Origin: Acidobacteriota bacterium
GTDB lineage: Bacteria; Acidobacteriota; Terriglobia; Acidiferrales; UBA7541
DNA length: 44,900 bases
Direction: 5' to 3'
Assembly: GCA_003224525.1 (NCBI GenBank)
Contig: QHZB01000221.1
Location: forward strand, 1 to 44,900
Positions 6,910 through 44,900 of the stretch are shown here, piece after piece (positions within the stretch are counted from its first letter, which is position 1; the number at the start of each line of letters is the position of its first letter). Below the pieces are notes generated by a model that was not told where the DNA came from, ran no database searches, and saw only the letters and a program-made list of their open reading frames with translations. The position numbers and the translations under genes are program-made.

Positions 6910-7263
6910 ATGACTCTCAGACACGAAAGAGCCGAGCGACACACCATCCAGGTTCGCAAGGGCGATAACGTCAAGGTGATTGCCGGGAAAGACGTCGGCA
7001 AGAGCGGGCGCGTGCTTTCGATCAACGCGAAGAAGAACACCGTGGTGGTCGAGCACGTCGGCATCATCAAGCGGCACACGCGTCCCAACCCTTCGAAGAA
7101 CATCAAGGGCGGGATCGTCGAGAAAGAAGCCGGGATCAACGTCTCGAACGTGATGGTCGTCTGCGGAAGCTGCGGCAAGCACACCCGGATTGGCCACACC
7201 GTGCTGCCGGACGGCACGAAAGTGCGCAGTTGCCGGCATTGCAACACGACGCTGGACAGGTAA
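6910..7263 (+). CDS. rplX: 50S ribosomal protein L24 (Cys-containing form)
   Basis: The KOW motif is at about residues 15-40 (VRKGDNVKVIAGKDVGKSGRVL). The C-terminal part carries two CxxC pairs (CGSCG and CRHCN), a potential zinc ribbon present in many but not all bacterial L24s. L24 nucleates 23S folding and lies at the tunnel exit. At 117 aa it is within the family range. It starts 3 nt after rplN. Confidence 0.96.
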   Translation: MTLRHERAERHTIQVRKGDNVKVIAGKDVGKSGRVLSINAKKNTVVVEHVGIIKRHTRPNPSKNIKGGIVEKEAGINVSNVMVVCGSCGKHTRIGHTVLPDGTKVRSCRHCNTTLDR

Positions 7264-7284
7264 AGGACCAGGTAGAAGAAGGCG

Positions 7285-7842
7285 ATGAAGAGCCGATTGC
7301 AGGAAAAATACCGGAGTGAGACGGTGCCCGCGCTGATGAAGCGCTTTGGCTGGAAGAACATGATGGCCGTGCCGAAGCTGCAGAAAATCACGGTCAACAT
7401 CGGCCTCGGCGAAGCAAGCCAGAACGCGAAGCTGCTGGACACCGCGGCAGTGGAGCTCGGTCAGATCACCGGGCAGAAAGCCGTGATCACACGGGCGAAG
7501 AAGTCCATCGCGAATTTCAAAATTCGCAAGGGCATGCCCATCGGCTGCGCGGTGACTTTGCGCGGCGACCTGATGTACGAATTTCTCGATCGCCTGTGCA
7601 ACGTGGTGCTCCCGCGCGTGCGCGACTTCCGCGGTTTGCCTCAGAATTCCTTTGACGGCCGCGGGAATTACACGCTGGGTCTGAAAGACCAGCTGGTGTT
7701 TCCGGAGATCGATTACACGCGCGTAGACAAGATCAAGGGCATGAACATCACTATGACGACCAGCGCGAGGAACGATGAGCAGGGCCGCGAGCTGCTCAAA
7801 GGGCTGGGGTTTCCGTTTCGCGAAAAAGGGGTGGCACAATAA
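7285..7842 (+). CDS. rplE: 50S ribosomal protein L5
   Basis: The 185-aa L5 protein has [57 protein letters not shown] and a C-terminal [21 protein letters not shown]5 binds 5S rRNA in the central protuberance and contacts P-site tRNA. Its TAA is directly followed by the rpsN ATG with no spacer. Confidence 0.97.
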
Positions 7843-8028
7843 ATGGCACGCACAGCAAAAATCGCCAAGTCCCTCAAGAAACCGAAATTCAAGGTGCGGA
7901 TACGCAACCGCTGCCGCTGCTGCGGCCGCGCGCGCGGGTATATCCGCAAGTTCCAGATGTGCAGAATCTGTTTTCGCGGTATGGCGCTGAAGGGAGAAAT
8001 CCCCGGCGTCGTGAAAGCCAGCTGGTAG
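7843..8028 (+). CDS. rpsN: 30S ribosomal protein S14, zinc-binding (type Z)
   Basis: This short 61-aa S14 has both CxxC pairs (CRCC and CRIC, 12 residues apart) plus [12 protein letters not shown] and the C-terminal [11 protein letters not shown]. These mark the zinc-dependent form rather than the roughly 100-aa zinc-free paralogue. S14 assembles late in the 30S head. It abuts rplE. Confidence 0.97.
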
Positions 8029-8046
8029 GAGCCCATCAGGAGAACT

Positions 8047-8445
8047 ATGCAGACGGACCCAATAGCCGATTTTCTGACACGCCTCCGCAACGCGGCGGCC
8101 GCCAAGCACCAGCGCGTCGATGTTCCGGTATCGAAGCTCAAGACCGAGATCGCGCGCATTTTGAAGGATGAGGGTTATATCTCGACCTACAAGCTGGTGG
8201 ACGAGAACAAGACGCGCAAAATGCTGCGCGTTTTCCTGAAGTACACTCCGGACCGCCGCAGCGTGATCACCGGCCTGAAGCGCATTTCGCGCCCGGGCGC
8301 GCGTTCCTATCTCGGCTCGGCCGATATTCGTCCCGTCGTGGGCGGGCTGGGCATCAGTATCATGACCACGCCGAGAGGGCTGATGAGCGGCCGCGCGGCG
8401 CGCAAGGCCAAAATTGGCGGCGAGATCCTTTGCGAAGTCTGGTAG
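8047..8445 (+). CDS. rpsH: 30S ribosomal protein S8
   Basis: The 132-aa S8 protein is recognised by DPIADFLTRLRNAAAAKH, the central RISRPGARSYL and the C-terminal ISIMTTPRGLMSGRAARKAKIGGEILCEVW. S8 binds h21 of 16S rRNA and in E. coli represses its own operon by binding the spc mRNA. I looked for but could not demonstrate an equivalent mRNA mimic here. Confidence 0.97.
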   Translation: MQTDPIADFLTRLRNAAAAKHQRVDVPVSKLKTEIARILKDEGYISTYKLVDENKTRKMLRVFLKYTPDRRSVITGLKRISRPGARSYLGSADIRPVVGGLGISIMTTPRGLMSGRAARKAKIGGEILCEVW

Positions 8446-42703: not shown

Positions 42704-43146
42704 TTGAAAAAATAACAGCGGCTCGATTCTAACGGTACTTGAACAGAAATTTCACTGGGAATTCGCGAGGCTGAGGAAAACTCAAGAGGGACATTCTCGA
42801 AGAGCTCATCCTTGCCGGATGAGCAATGGAGCGGCCTATCTCGGGGACCGTTCCATTCGGGCATAACAATACATCCGCGAACAAGAGGCCGCGGATGGTA
42901 ACAGCGGCAGCTTCTAAACTCATCCCCGAAGGCGCGCCTTAGCGCGACGCCTCAACCAACGGGACAACCGCCTTTGAGGCGCAATGTTGAGCTCAACATT
43001 CCGCCTCCAATGTGAAGCTGTAAGTAATGTGGAGTTGGCACGTCAAGGTGCCGCCAGTCGCGACTTTCTGGGCCCCAAACTTCACATTTATATGTAGCGT
43101 CGGAACGGCTGCCATCCGGCGGCTGAATCCACTTCGAGGAGATACG
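42704..43146. other. Palindrome-rich region at the recombinase element end
   Basis: This 443-nt region carries GCTCATCC/GGATGAGC (42804-42824, 5-nt loop), CATCCGCG/CGCGGATG (42872-42897), CGCCTCAA/TTGAGGCG (42948-42981) and a 32-nt near-perfect palindrome at 42976-43007. No gene is convincing; the frame upstream of the recombinase start (from 43027) is not conserved-looking. It probably contains the left end of the mobile element and its recombination site. Confidence 0.6.
42976..43088. mobile_element. Candidate recombination site: nonamer cluster AATGTNNAG
   Basis: The nonamer occurs five times in 106 nt: AATGTTGAG at 42983-42991, its complement at 42992-43000 (head-to-head, forming an 18-bp perfect palindrome), AATGTGAAG at 43009-43017, AATGTGGAG at 43026-43034, and CTTCACATT (complement) at 43080-43088. 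The central palindrome is extended by GAGGCG/CGCCTC arms with one mismatch. Spacings of 17-18 nt between starts fit paired recombinase half-sites. Confidence 0.5.
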
Positions 43147-44394
43147 ATGCTACGTTGTCTATTCCCGAACTCTCACCGCAGGTTTCTGTCACTACCACTG
43201 TTGGGACCGATCGCCGAGGGCTTTGACGATTGGCTTGCCTTCAATGGCTACACTCGATACTCGCGCCAGTATTTGATCAGCATGCTGTCGCGCGTGGACG
43301 CTGACCTTCGGCACCGTCAGGTTAAAGCGGTCGCCGACCTAACCCATCCAGTTCTCTACGATTGTTGGAGGACTCTCATCAAGATCCATCGCCATGGCGC
43401 AGGAACTGTGCGGACACTGGAACGATATCTAGCCACGAAGAGCCTGATCACCGATGGCAGGCCCACAACAGCAACATCCTCCGCCTCGATTCTGGTCGAA
43501 GAGTATGCCAGCTACCTGCGCGAAGTACGCGGAAGCGCTGCGTCTACCGTTTCAAACCACCGATATACAGCGCAGTGCTTTCTCCAGCACCTAGATGAAA
43601 AGGGAATCGCACTGAAGGACATCCAGACTAGCCATATCGAATCCTACGTCACCAAAGCCGGCAAATGCTTGAGCCGGGCAAGTCTCCAAGTCTACATCGG
43701 TGCGCTGAGGGGATTTCTTAGATTCCTGGCCATGGACGGCAGGGTTCGCCAAGGGCTGGTCAGTCAGATCGATACGCCGCGCGTTTATCAGTTCGAACAG
43801 TTGCCGCGAACCCTCCCTTGGGAGACGGTCCGCGCACTCCTGCGATCCATTGACAGAACCTCGGCTATGGGACTGCGCGACTACGCGATGTTTCTGTTGA
43901 TTGCCACCTACGGATTGCGGGCCAGTGAAGTAGTAGCCCTCACCCTCGATGACATTCGCTGGCGACAGGGCAGTTTGCGAATCCACCAACCCAAGACCTC
44001 TTCGTTTTTGGAACTGCCGCTGACCAATGAGGTCTCGTCCGCAGTGGTGAAGCATCTGAAGCGGACTCCACCGCCCCCACCGTATCGCAGGATCTTCTTG
44101 AGAATGCGCGCCCCCATTGGCCTGTTGAAACGCACGGCCATCGAGGAAGCTTTTCAATCCTGGGTTCGGAGAAGCAGACTCAGCATTCCGTTTCAGGGTC
44201 CGCATTGCCTTCGACATTCGCTGGCGGTTCATCTTCTAAAAACCAGAACTCCTCTGAAGACCATTGGCGACATCCTCGGGCATCGTTCCGCGAGGAGCAC
44301 GTCGACTTATCTACGACTAGCGACCAGAGATTTGCGCGAAGTTCCTCTTGCAGTTCCGGGGAAAGGGCGTCCGGCAAAGGAGGGGCAGCGATGA
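43147..44394 (+). CDS. Tyrosine recombinase, first gene of a RIT-like element
   Basis: The 415-aa integrase has an extended N-terminal region, a SAM-like core-binding domain at about 115-200 and a catalytic domain at about 220-395 with all residues present: R258 (YGLRASE), K283, H353 and R356 (HCLRHS), H379 (LGHRS) and nucleophile Y388. It breaks and rejoins DNA through a 3'-phosphotyrosine. GAGGAG 6 nt upstream fixes ATG 43147. The ATGA overlap with the next recombinase gene suggests translational coupling, as in recombinase-in-trio elements. Confidence 0.93.
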   Translation: MLRCLFPNSHRRFLSLPLLGPIAEGFDDWLAFNGYTRYSRQYLISMLSRVDADLRHRQVKAVADLTHPVLYDCWRTLIKIHRHGAGTVRTLERYLATKSLITDGRPTTATSSASILVEEYASYLREVRGSAASTVSNHRYTAQCFLQHLDEKGIALKDIQTSHIESYVTKAGKCLSRASLQVYIGALRGFLRFLAMDGRVRQGLVSQIDTPRVYQFEQLPRTLPWETVRALLRSIDRTSAMGLRDYAMFLLIATYGLRASEVVALTLDDIRWRQGSLRIHQPKTSSFLELPLTNEVSSAVVKHLKRTPPPPPYRRIFLRMRAPIGLLKRTAIEEAFQSWVRRSRLSIPFQGPHCLRHSLAVHLLKTRTPLKTIGDILGHRSARSTSTYLRLATRDLREVPLAVPGKGRPAKEGQR

Positions 44395-44900
44395 TCGGAC
44401 CAACGACTGTGTTTTCGTCTCGGCTTGCACCCGCCTTGGCACGGTATGTGGATTTGAAGCGGGCCTTGGGCCGACGCTTCGACAAAACCACTCGGACTCT
44501 ACAATCGCTGGACCGATTCCTCCACGATCATGCTCCCCACTACCTCGACCTAAACGCTGCTGCGTTTCAGGCCTGGTGCCAGACCCTGGGGCATCTCGCT
44601 TCCGGTGTTCGACGTAAGCGCATGCGGGAGGTTTACAGCTTCTGCCTCTATTGCCGCCGAACCGAGCCCCGGTGCTTTGTTCCCGATCCTGCTTCGTTTC
44701 CGAAGCCTCATCAAAGACTCCAGCCGTACATCTTCTCGGAACAAGATGTCGCGAGACTGTTGCGAACCACCTCTGGGTTGAAGCGAGTACCGTCTTCGCC
44801 GCTTCGCCCCGAGGTAGTTCGGCTGGCGATCGTGCTCTTGTTTACGACCGGAATCAGGCATGGGGAGTTGCGGCGCCTGACTCTGGGTGATTACAACCGG
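44391..44900 (+). CDS. Second tyrosine recombinase, truncated by the window end
   Basis: An ATG at 44391 overlaps the previous stop by 4 nt (ATGA). The frame stays open for 170 codons to the last base. The start VFSSRLAPALARYVDLKRALGRRF and LQSLDRFLHDH look like an integrase SAM-like domain. LRPEVVRLAIVLLFTTGIRHGELRRLTLGDYN contains the first catalytic Arg (R156). The remaining catalytic residues would lie outside the window. It is distinct from the first recombinase, as expected for RitA/RitB-type pairs. Confidence 0.88.
   Translation, partial: MIGPTTVFSSRLAPALARYVDLKRALGRRFDKTTRTLQSLDRFLHDHAPHYLDLNAAAFQAWCQTLGHLASGVRRKRMREVYSFCLYCRRTEPRCFVPDPASFPKPHQRLQPYIFSEQDVARLLRTTSGLKRVPSSPLRPEVVRLAIVLLFTTGIRHGELRRLTLGDYNR

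Follow-up and report, generated by a model that had tools for sequence, protein, structure and literature searches.

A repeat cluster upstream of a recombinase gene

Two genes are read from the plus strand at the end of the window, by which we mean the whole 44,900-nt stretch of Acidobacteriota DNA analyzed here (contig C394): ritA (positions 43147 to 44394), coding for a tyrosine recombinase of 415 amino acids with two predicted N-terminal helical bundles, and the first 170 codons of ritB (44391 to 44900). Both genes overlap by 4 nt (ATGA), and ritB is cut by the end of the contig at 44900, inside the element described below. Upstream of ritA lies a cluster of short repeats in which the initial annotation had recognized five copies of AATGTNNAG within 106 nt. 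All five were found, at 42983 (+), 42992 (-), 43009 (+), 43026 (+), and 43080 (-), the window as a whole holding seven. The first two, designated P (AATGTTGAG, 42983 to 42991, plus strand) and P' (AATGTTGAG on the minus strand, 42992 to 43000), form the perfect 18-bp palindrome AATGTTGAGCTCAACATT (42983 to 43000), as had also been proposed. The larger 32-nt inverted repeat described around it (42976 to 43007) pairs at 15 of 16 positions on direct count, and an inverted-repeat search at the same palindrome gave arms of 19 nt at 89%.

The palindrome is flanked by two copies of a 6-nt word, designated X. Its outer copy (GAGGCG, 42976 to 42981, plus strand) is the target core at the junction between host and element, and its inner copy, X' (CGCCTC, the reverse complement of X, 43002 to 43007, plus strand), ends 2 nt before the ATG of half-site A1. 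A1 (AATGTGAAG, 43009 to 43017, plus strand) constitutes the tip of the terminal inverted repeat, and it is followed at a distance of 17 nt by A2 (AATGTGGAG, 43026 to 43034, plus strand) and then by A3 (AATGTGAAG in inverted orientation, 43080 to 43088, minus strand).

In 300 dinucleotide shuffles, AATGTNNAG never occurred more than twice per 106 nt. When any pattern of the same shape was allowed, five shuffles rendered maxima of 4, 8, 4, 4, and 4 copies, and the window itself contains a second five-copy pattern, at 555. The copy count alone is therefore weak evidence, and it was dropped as a stand-alone argument after the any-pattern control. Judged from the sequences, the strong evidence for the cluster is its recurrence among relatives rather than its copy number. 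The second cluster (555 to 600) is made of five copies of ACTGANNAC, with short TCAGTTNTCAGT-like repeats in a run, 3' of an open frame.

The cluster as the left end of a RIT element

Comparison with other genomes identifies the cluster as the ritA-side (left) end of a RIT (recombinase-in-trio) element. It had been annotated as the end of a tyrosine recombinase element, with the expectation of an inverse array at the right end. Such an array was found once, without the palindrome, at positions 805 to 892 of contig C410 of the same genome (locus L005), immediately following the 3' portion of the third recombinase gene (ritC). Both ends were identical at 73 of 88 nt. Because the recombinase genes overlap, the ends are inverted, and RitA has two predicted N-terminal bundles, we assign the element to the RIT class: three adjacent tyrosine recombinase genes are represented (ritA, the 5' part of ritB, and the 3' part of the third gene on C410), with terminal inverted repeats and a palindrome beside ritA. 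The overlap between ritB and ritC, which is 4 nt in the complete relative L006, falls within an assembly gap in the window element.

RitA matched PF00589 and PF02899. Its predicted model, of moderate quality (mean pLDDT, 75.8; pTM, 0.46), places four-helix bundles at residues 20 to 97 and 112 to 196, both before the catalytic domain; two successive core-binding domains are described as a trait of RitA in the part of PMC8138268 that deals with it. For RitC, an additional C-terminal helix is expected in this class. The best PDB match of the model was XerA (E value, 1.3e-8), with a query TM-score of just 0.36. The catalytic residues R258, K283, H353, R356, H379, and Y388 were invariant in an alignment of 10 sequences; those of RitC are present by eye, and RitB is cut 5' of its own. 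The nearest RitA relatives (79 and 73%) came from Acidobacteria gp2 MAGs, and a search at an E value of 1e-60 detected RitA in 5 of 396 phylum genomes, its own included. A search of 399 genomes of the class for the P.P'-X'-A1 pattern with the exact center matched the genome of origin alone.

Measured against L006, approximately 0.68 kb is unassembled between the two contigs, the corresponding stretch in L006 being ritB plus ritC; no contig of the genome matched this missing middle in a DNA search with L006. Since the two halves are complementary and each end was found once in the genome, C394 and C410 likely belong to one and the same RIT copy.

Host element and target of the window copy

To judge from its left flank, the element has an IS200/IS605-like element as its host and occupies the right end of it. 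The last 15 codons plus the stop of a tnpA remnant (YIREQEAADGNSGSF) lie at 42870 to 42917 (plus strand), and the same sequence closes a Y1_Tnp open reading frame in locus L063 (PF01797; E value, 5.2e-20). Between this remnant and P, a hairpin of the host right end (42948 to 42981, plus strand) lies outside the RIT element and includes X in its 3' arm.

When the flanks were joined with X present once, the predicted empty site was found uninterrupted at six places in 3 of 35 other genomes of the genus. These matches span the junction over 139 to 158 nt with identities of 80 to 98% (98, 98, and 80% in G401, 97% in G413, and 96 and 86% in G407); a fourth genome, G408, gave a match of 44 nt. What is matched is the terminal part of a repeated element; in L063, it lies 3' of the IS200-type open reading frame. 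As the matches are limited to this repeated end, and the window and C410 have their single-copy flanks matched on other contigs of those relatives, the matches represent intact copies of the target element and not the empty locus itself.

An alternative pairing of 42948 to 42955 with 42974 to 42981 had been put forward as a structural switch competing with the palindrome. The fold is indeed present, but it corresponds to the hairpin of the host right end, and its role as a switch of the RIT element was rejected. As single-stranded DNA, this hairpin has a predicted energy of -10.6 kcal/mol and the palindrome segment one of -11.6 kcal/mol; in the 71-nt stretch, the two coexist, the sole loss being the pairing of X with X'. 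Given its place in the 3' arm of the host hairpin, X is able to pair either way.

Anatomy of the ends among relatives

Loci from genome contigs, plasmids, and genomes were compared, using A1 anchors entered by hand. We scored 38 of them (the window and C410 counting as one), with both ends visible in 27. Seven were not scorable at the tip (L008, L011, L015, L020, L021, L043, and L053) because of a contig edge, the lack of an anchor, or a distant element, and duplicates were left out (L001 to L004 and L023 to L027). Many loci are close kin (Bradyrhizobium and Sinorhizobium), and therefore the counts given below are not independent. Four of the MAG contigs (L008, L011, L014, and L017) are about one RIT length long (3.5 to 3.6 kb), which fits assembly collapse of multicopy elements.

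The inner part of the array was highly constant. A2 was located 17 nt from A1 in all 66 ends (L022 left out), and the inverted A3, read as ACAT, lay 73 to 76 nt from A1 in 59 of the 66 and at 85 nt in three (L041 left, L044 right, and L051 left); it was not found as ACAT in the remaining four (L050, L051 right, and both ends of L054). Outside A1, X ends 2 nt before its ATG and differs between elements. Some ends continue outward with the back-to-back half-sites P'.P and, at a distance of 26 nt from the inner X, its reverse complement once more.

Of 65 ends, 28 showed at least 10 of the 13 arm pairs in a palindrome scan with free offset, the other 37 having at most 9. The center of the palindrome was 18 nt from A1 in 27 of these ends and 35 nt in L022, which fits a true A1 lying 17 nt further out in that locus. 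In L022, L051 right, and L054 left, P was first assigned by eye; the latter two fail the arm test, and all three pass the palindrome scan.

The complete X-P.P'-X' block was present at one end in 17 of the 27 two-ended loci, on the ritA side in 7 and on the ritC side in 10, so the palindrome is not a plain terminal repeat. The 10 loci that deviate from exactly one block carry it either at both ends (L040 and L051) or at neither (L010, L012, L019, L028, L029, L037, L038, and L044), and we propose that they were rearranged later; two of them have N-halves of istB on both sides. Two copies that are 99.97% identical, with 1 nt differing in 3,436 (L031 and L032), carry P.P' at opposite ends.

Some loci showed peculiarities of their own. 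L037 and L010, with istB N-halves on both flanks, and L040, with P.P' at both ends, resemble the reciprocal products expected when two RIT copies recombine. At approximately 8960 to 9000 of L016, an X-P.P' block stands beside the istB C-half, and the ritC-side tip (A1) was not found there, as if deleted. In L028, L029, L044, and L045, one end each has a similar stretch, with inverted T- and A-rich arms plus TCTGC, adjoining the RIT tip; it might be where another mobile element ends.

X and the target sites

The inner and outer copies of X agreed closely. Their mean difference in 27 ends was 0.74 mismatches in six positions at one offset, compared with 2.96 to 5.52 at 23 others. For 25 nonredundant pairs, the mean was 0.64 versus 3.04 after permutation, with none of 20,000 permutations as low, and 13 pairs matched exactly versus at most 6 in the permutations (L022 was included in the permutation and left out of the offset test). 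Similarly, X at the end without the block was identical to the outer X in 13 of 17 loci, with one mismatch in three and two in one. The match is not strict, since X and X' were identical in 14 of the 28 P-bearing ends and differed by 1 to 3 nt in the other 14. L032, L034, and L035 have inner CTGGAC versus outer TTGGAT, and in L009 the two copies differ at three of six positions.

To judge from the joined sequences, the target reads through without interruption once the stretch from one X copy up to the next is taken out. Flanks were joined with X once in 15 of the 17 one-block loci plus the window (L035 was left out), and by reading, a long frame passed through the junction in 12 of the 15 (L006, L031, L032, L034, L036, L039, L041, L046, L048, L049, L052, and L054). 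In L047, whose flank is rearranged, the joined frame was lost a few codons past the junction, and no recognizable frame was seen in the joined flanks of L018 and L030. The joined flanks of the Bradyrhizobium locus L032 gave 54 matching records, 41 of them covering at least 80%, and correspond to an intact ISFK1 istB gene over its full 534 nt, with 98.5 to 99.8% identity, in 23 of the 25 matching records listed. On these alignments, the ends, X, and intact copies of the target are shown.

Seven joined targets were searched against Pfam. Three proteins matched IstB_IS21 (E values, 6.6e-69, 2e-70, and 5.2e-72), and others gave DnaG-type domains (L006), IS110 domains (L054), IS66 TnpB (L041; E value, 5.2e-27), and ParB_N (L052), the last with its domain wholly before the junction. 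No Pfam match was obtained with the flanks of L007 (69 amino acids) and L050. The single IstB halves of L009, L012, L013, L016, and L028 break off or start at position 160 of the 238-position profile, which we take to be in the Walker B motif. The istB insertions, in IS21-type elements, share this position (L009, L012, L013, L016, L028 to L039, and L044 to L049). Others interrupt IS66 tnpB (L041), IS110 (L054 and, by eye, L051), a DnaG-like primase gene (L006), a ParB-like gene (L052), and genes for AAA-type ATPases (L040 and L042). No conserved target arms outside X were clear by eye in 38 N-side and 27 C-side flanks, the row of L022 being misanchored. In the istB insertions, the block stood beside the C-half in all 15 P-bearing ends and beside the N-half in none of 25 N-half ends; halves were assigned mostly by reading translations, and many close relatives are included.

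A model for RIT movement

Our preferred reading, which we consider likely, is that a RIT element lies within an IS200/IS605-like right end and has the cluster as its left terminus, that the RIT element forms a circle with the joint A1'-X-P.P'-X'-A1, and that exchange takes place over X. Joining of the RIT ends would create two mirrored dif-like cores, each a 6-bp crossover region between the inverted arms A1 and P, whose ATG stands 2 nt away on both sides. The half-sites of dif are spaced CAT-2-6-2-ATG, the same spacing that A1 and P have around X. The recombinases would swap strands with a target across the six base pairs of X. Owing to the symmetry of the joint, both cores would be usable and P.P' could come to lie at either end, namely that of the core used, and the unused inner X' would be left behind as a trace of an earlier target. 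X probably helps target choice through sequence match. Exchange at either core would account for P.P' at opposite ends of L031 and L032, for the block on the C-half side in istB insertions, and for an inner X' that may differ from the present target (L032, L034, and L035). What we infer from the compared loci is the circle, the exchange of strands over X, half-site binding, and the use of X as an address. One exact pattern of the circle joint had no match in viral_contigs, and none of the 15 matching plasmid records held 80% of the Bradyrhizobium joint. The observations that bear on mobility are the uninterrupted target copies in relatives and the near-identical RIT copies on different plasmids.

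Four other explanations were weighed. The block resembles two element tips back to back, and it might be a scar, formed when an earlier element left two tip half-sites and a second one inserted beside them. This is very unlikely, since the offset-free scan gave one constant distance for the palindrome in the 28 ends having it (L022 after the 17-nt shift of its anchor), since the block of istB insertions kept to the C-half (15 of 15 versus 0 of 25), and since near-identical copies carry it at opposite ends. That the cluster is merely the operator or promoter region of ritA, directly 5' of which it lies, without any role in recombination, is extremely improbable: the same array with the same spacing occurs after ritC, where it cannot serve ritA. 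The other end contradicts such a function as the sole one; a dual role is possible.

It is doubtful, too, that X' is copied from the target at each insertion instead of being selected by homology. Such rewriting would agree with the exact identity of X' and the outer X in 14 of 28 P-bearing ends, unusual targets among them (the window, L006, L041, and L052). The differing copies in L032, L034, L035, and L009 speak against it, and perfect rewriting was rejected on these mismatches. A folded single strand might also work as the site, as in integron attC, with one strand of the mirrored joint folding into a single core. In favor of this are the good fold of the palindrome segment (-11.6 kcal/mol; z, -5.2), the pairing of A1'-X-P with P'-X'-A1 that folding of the joint would bring about, and the SE elements, which are of a related kind and are thought to move via a one-strand circle or its replicated form, according to the relevant part of PMC10214605. 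However, pairing of the core is not strictly kept, X and X' differing by 1 to 3 nt in half of the 28 ends, and exchange between double strands accounts for the observations; we regard the folded site as unlikely.

Beyond the preferred reading of exchange over X at a two-core joint, a wider interpretation can be offered, to which we give slightly less than even weight. RIT elements may carry a rewritable six-letter address, in which two mirrored dif-like cores in the circular joint have the present and a previous target as spacers and a spacer match steers insertion. In this branch, the address would often correspond to codons of the Walker B motif in istB and further ATPase genes, which would make these elements parasites of transposons at sites that their hosts are hardly able to change.

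Comparison with known systems

Van Houdt et al. (2012; PMC3414803), in their section on RIT, described three tyrosine recombinase genes with short overlaps, a size of approximately 3.5 kb, a 28- to 29-bp inverted repeat that, with a palindrome overlapping it, flanks ritA and ritC, and insertion in transposase genes. The elements compared here resemble these in their overlapping recombinase trio, their size of about 3.5 kb, their inverted repeat plus palindrome, and their insertion in transposase genes. The same section (section 11) states that there were no other convincing repeats, that the features misfit the usual core and arm sites, and that experimental evidence of RIT mobility was absent, and it calls movement and the need for three recombinases still hard to understand. 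The two-core joint, the 6-bp X, and the empty sites described here go beyond that section. SE elements and Tn554 likewise have tyrosine recombinases in an operon and inverted end motifs with a 6-bp spacer, and their 6-bp border word derives from the previous or new target, as stated in the passages of PMC10214605 that concern them. From the same passages, SE elements differ in having two recombinases plus Tfp and Srap instead of three recombinases, and in a joint with one spacer and one motif pair, whereas the RIT joint proposed here would hold two mirrored cores. Thus, the inverted repeat and palindrome of RIT elements (PMC3414803) and the border word of SE and Tn554 (PMC10214605) are already known, as far as these portions go.

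GInts are also similar, with three integrase genes, site-specific integration, and attachment-site variants after excision, according to the pertinent part of PMC5385486; their flanks are imperfect direct repeats, whereas the 6-nt X alone is directly repeated here. Four GInt genes are given as essential in the corresponding part of PMC10214605. A fourth gene (ginD) was not seen in our element: none lies between the left array and ritA, the ritC stop (C410, 796) is 9 nt from A3 (805), and in L006 the stretch corresponding to the assembly gap is taken up by ritB and ritC. With Xer/dif, RIT ends share a 6-bp exchange region enclosed by a pair of inverted half-sites, as outlined in the part of PMC5357621 on these sites, but in RIT elements the spacer changes from target to target and there would be two mirror-image copies of the site. 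Neither a two-core joint nor a 6-bp X was found for RIT in the portions consulted of PMC3414803, PMC10214605, PMC2864759, PMC5385486, and PMC8138268; Ricker et al. (2013; Plasmid 70:226) may hold part of it. In the part seen of PMC12306157, "RIT" designates terminators.

A table in PMC10214605 marks target specificity, empty site, and movement of RIT as "not tested." The recurrent anatomy defines exact crossover borders and predicts a circular joint, and near-identical RIT copies and intact target sites can be pointed to on named plasmids, so that RIT movement becomes directly testable. One of the otherwise near-identical copies, L035, has an IS630-like ISRj1 annotated within ritC (7074 to 8138).
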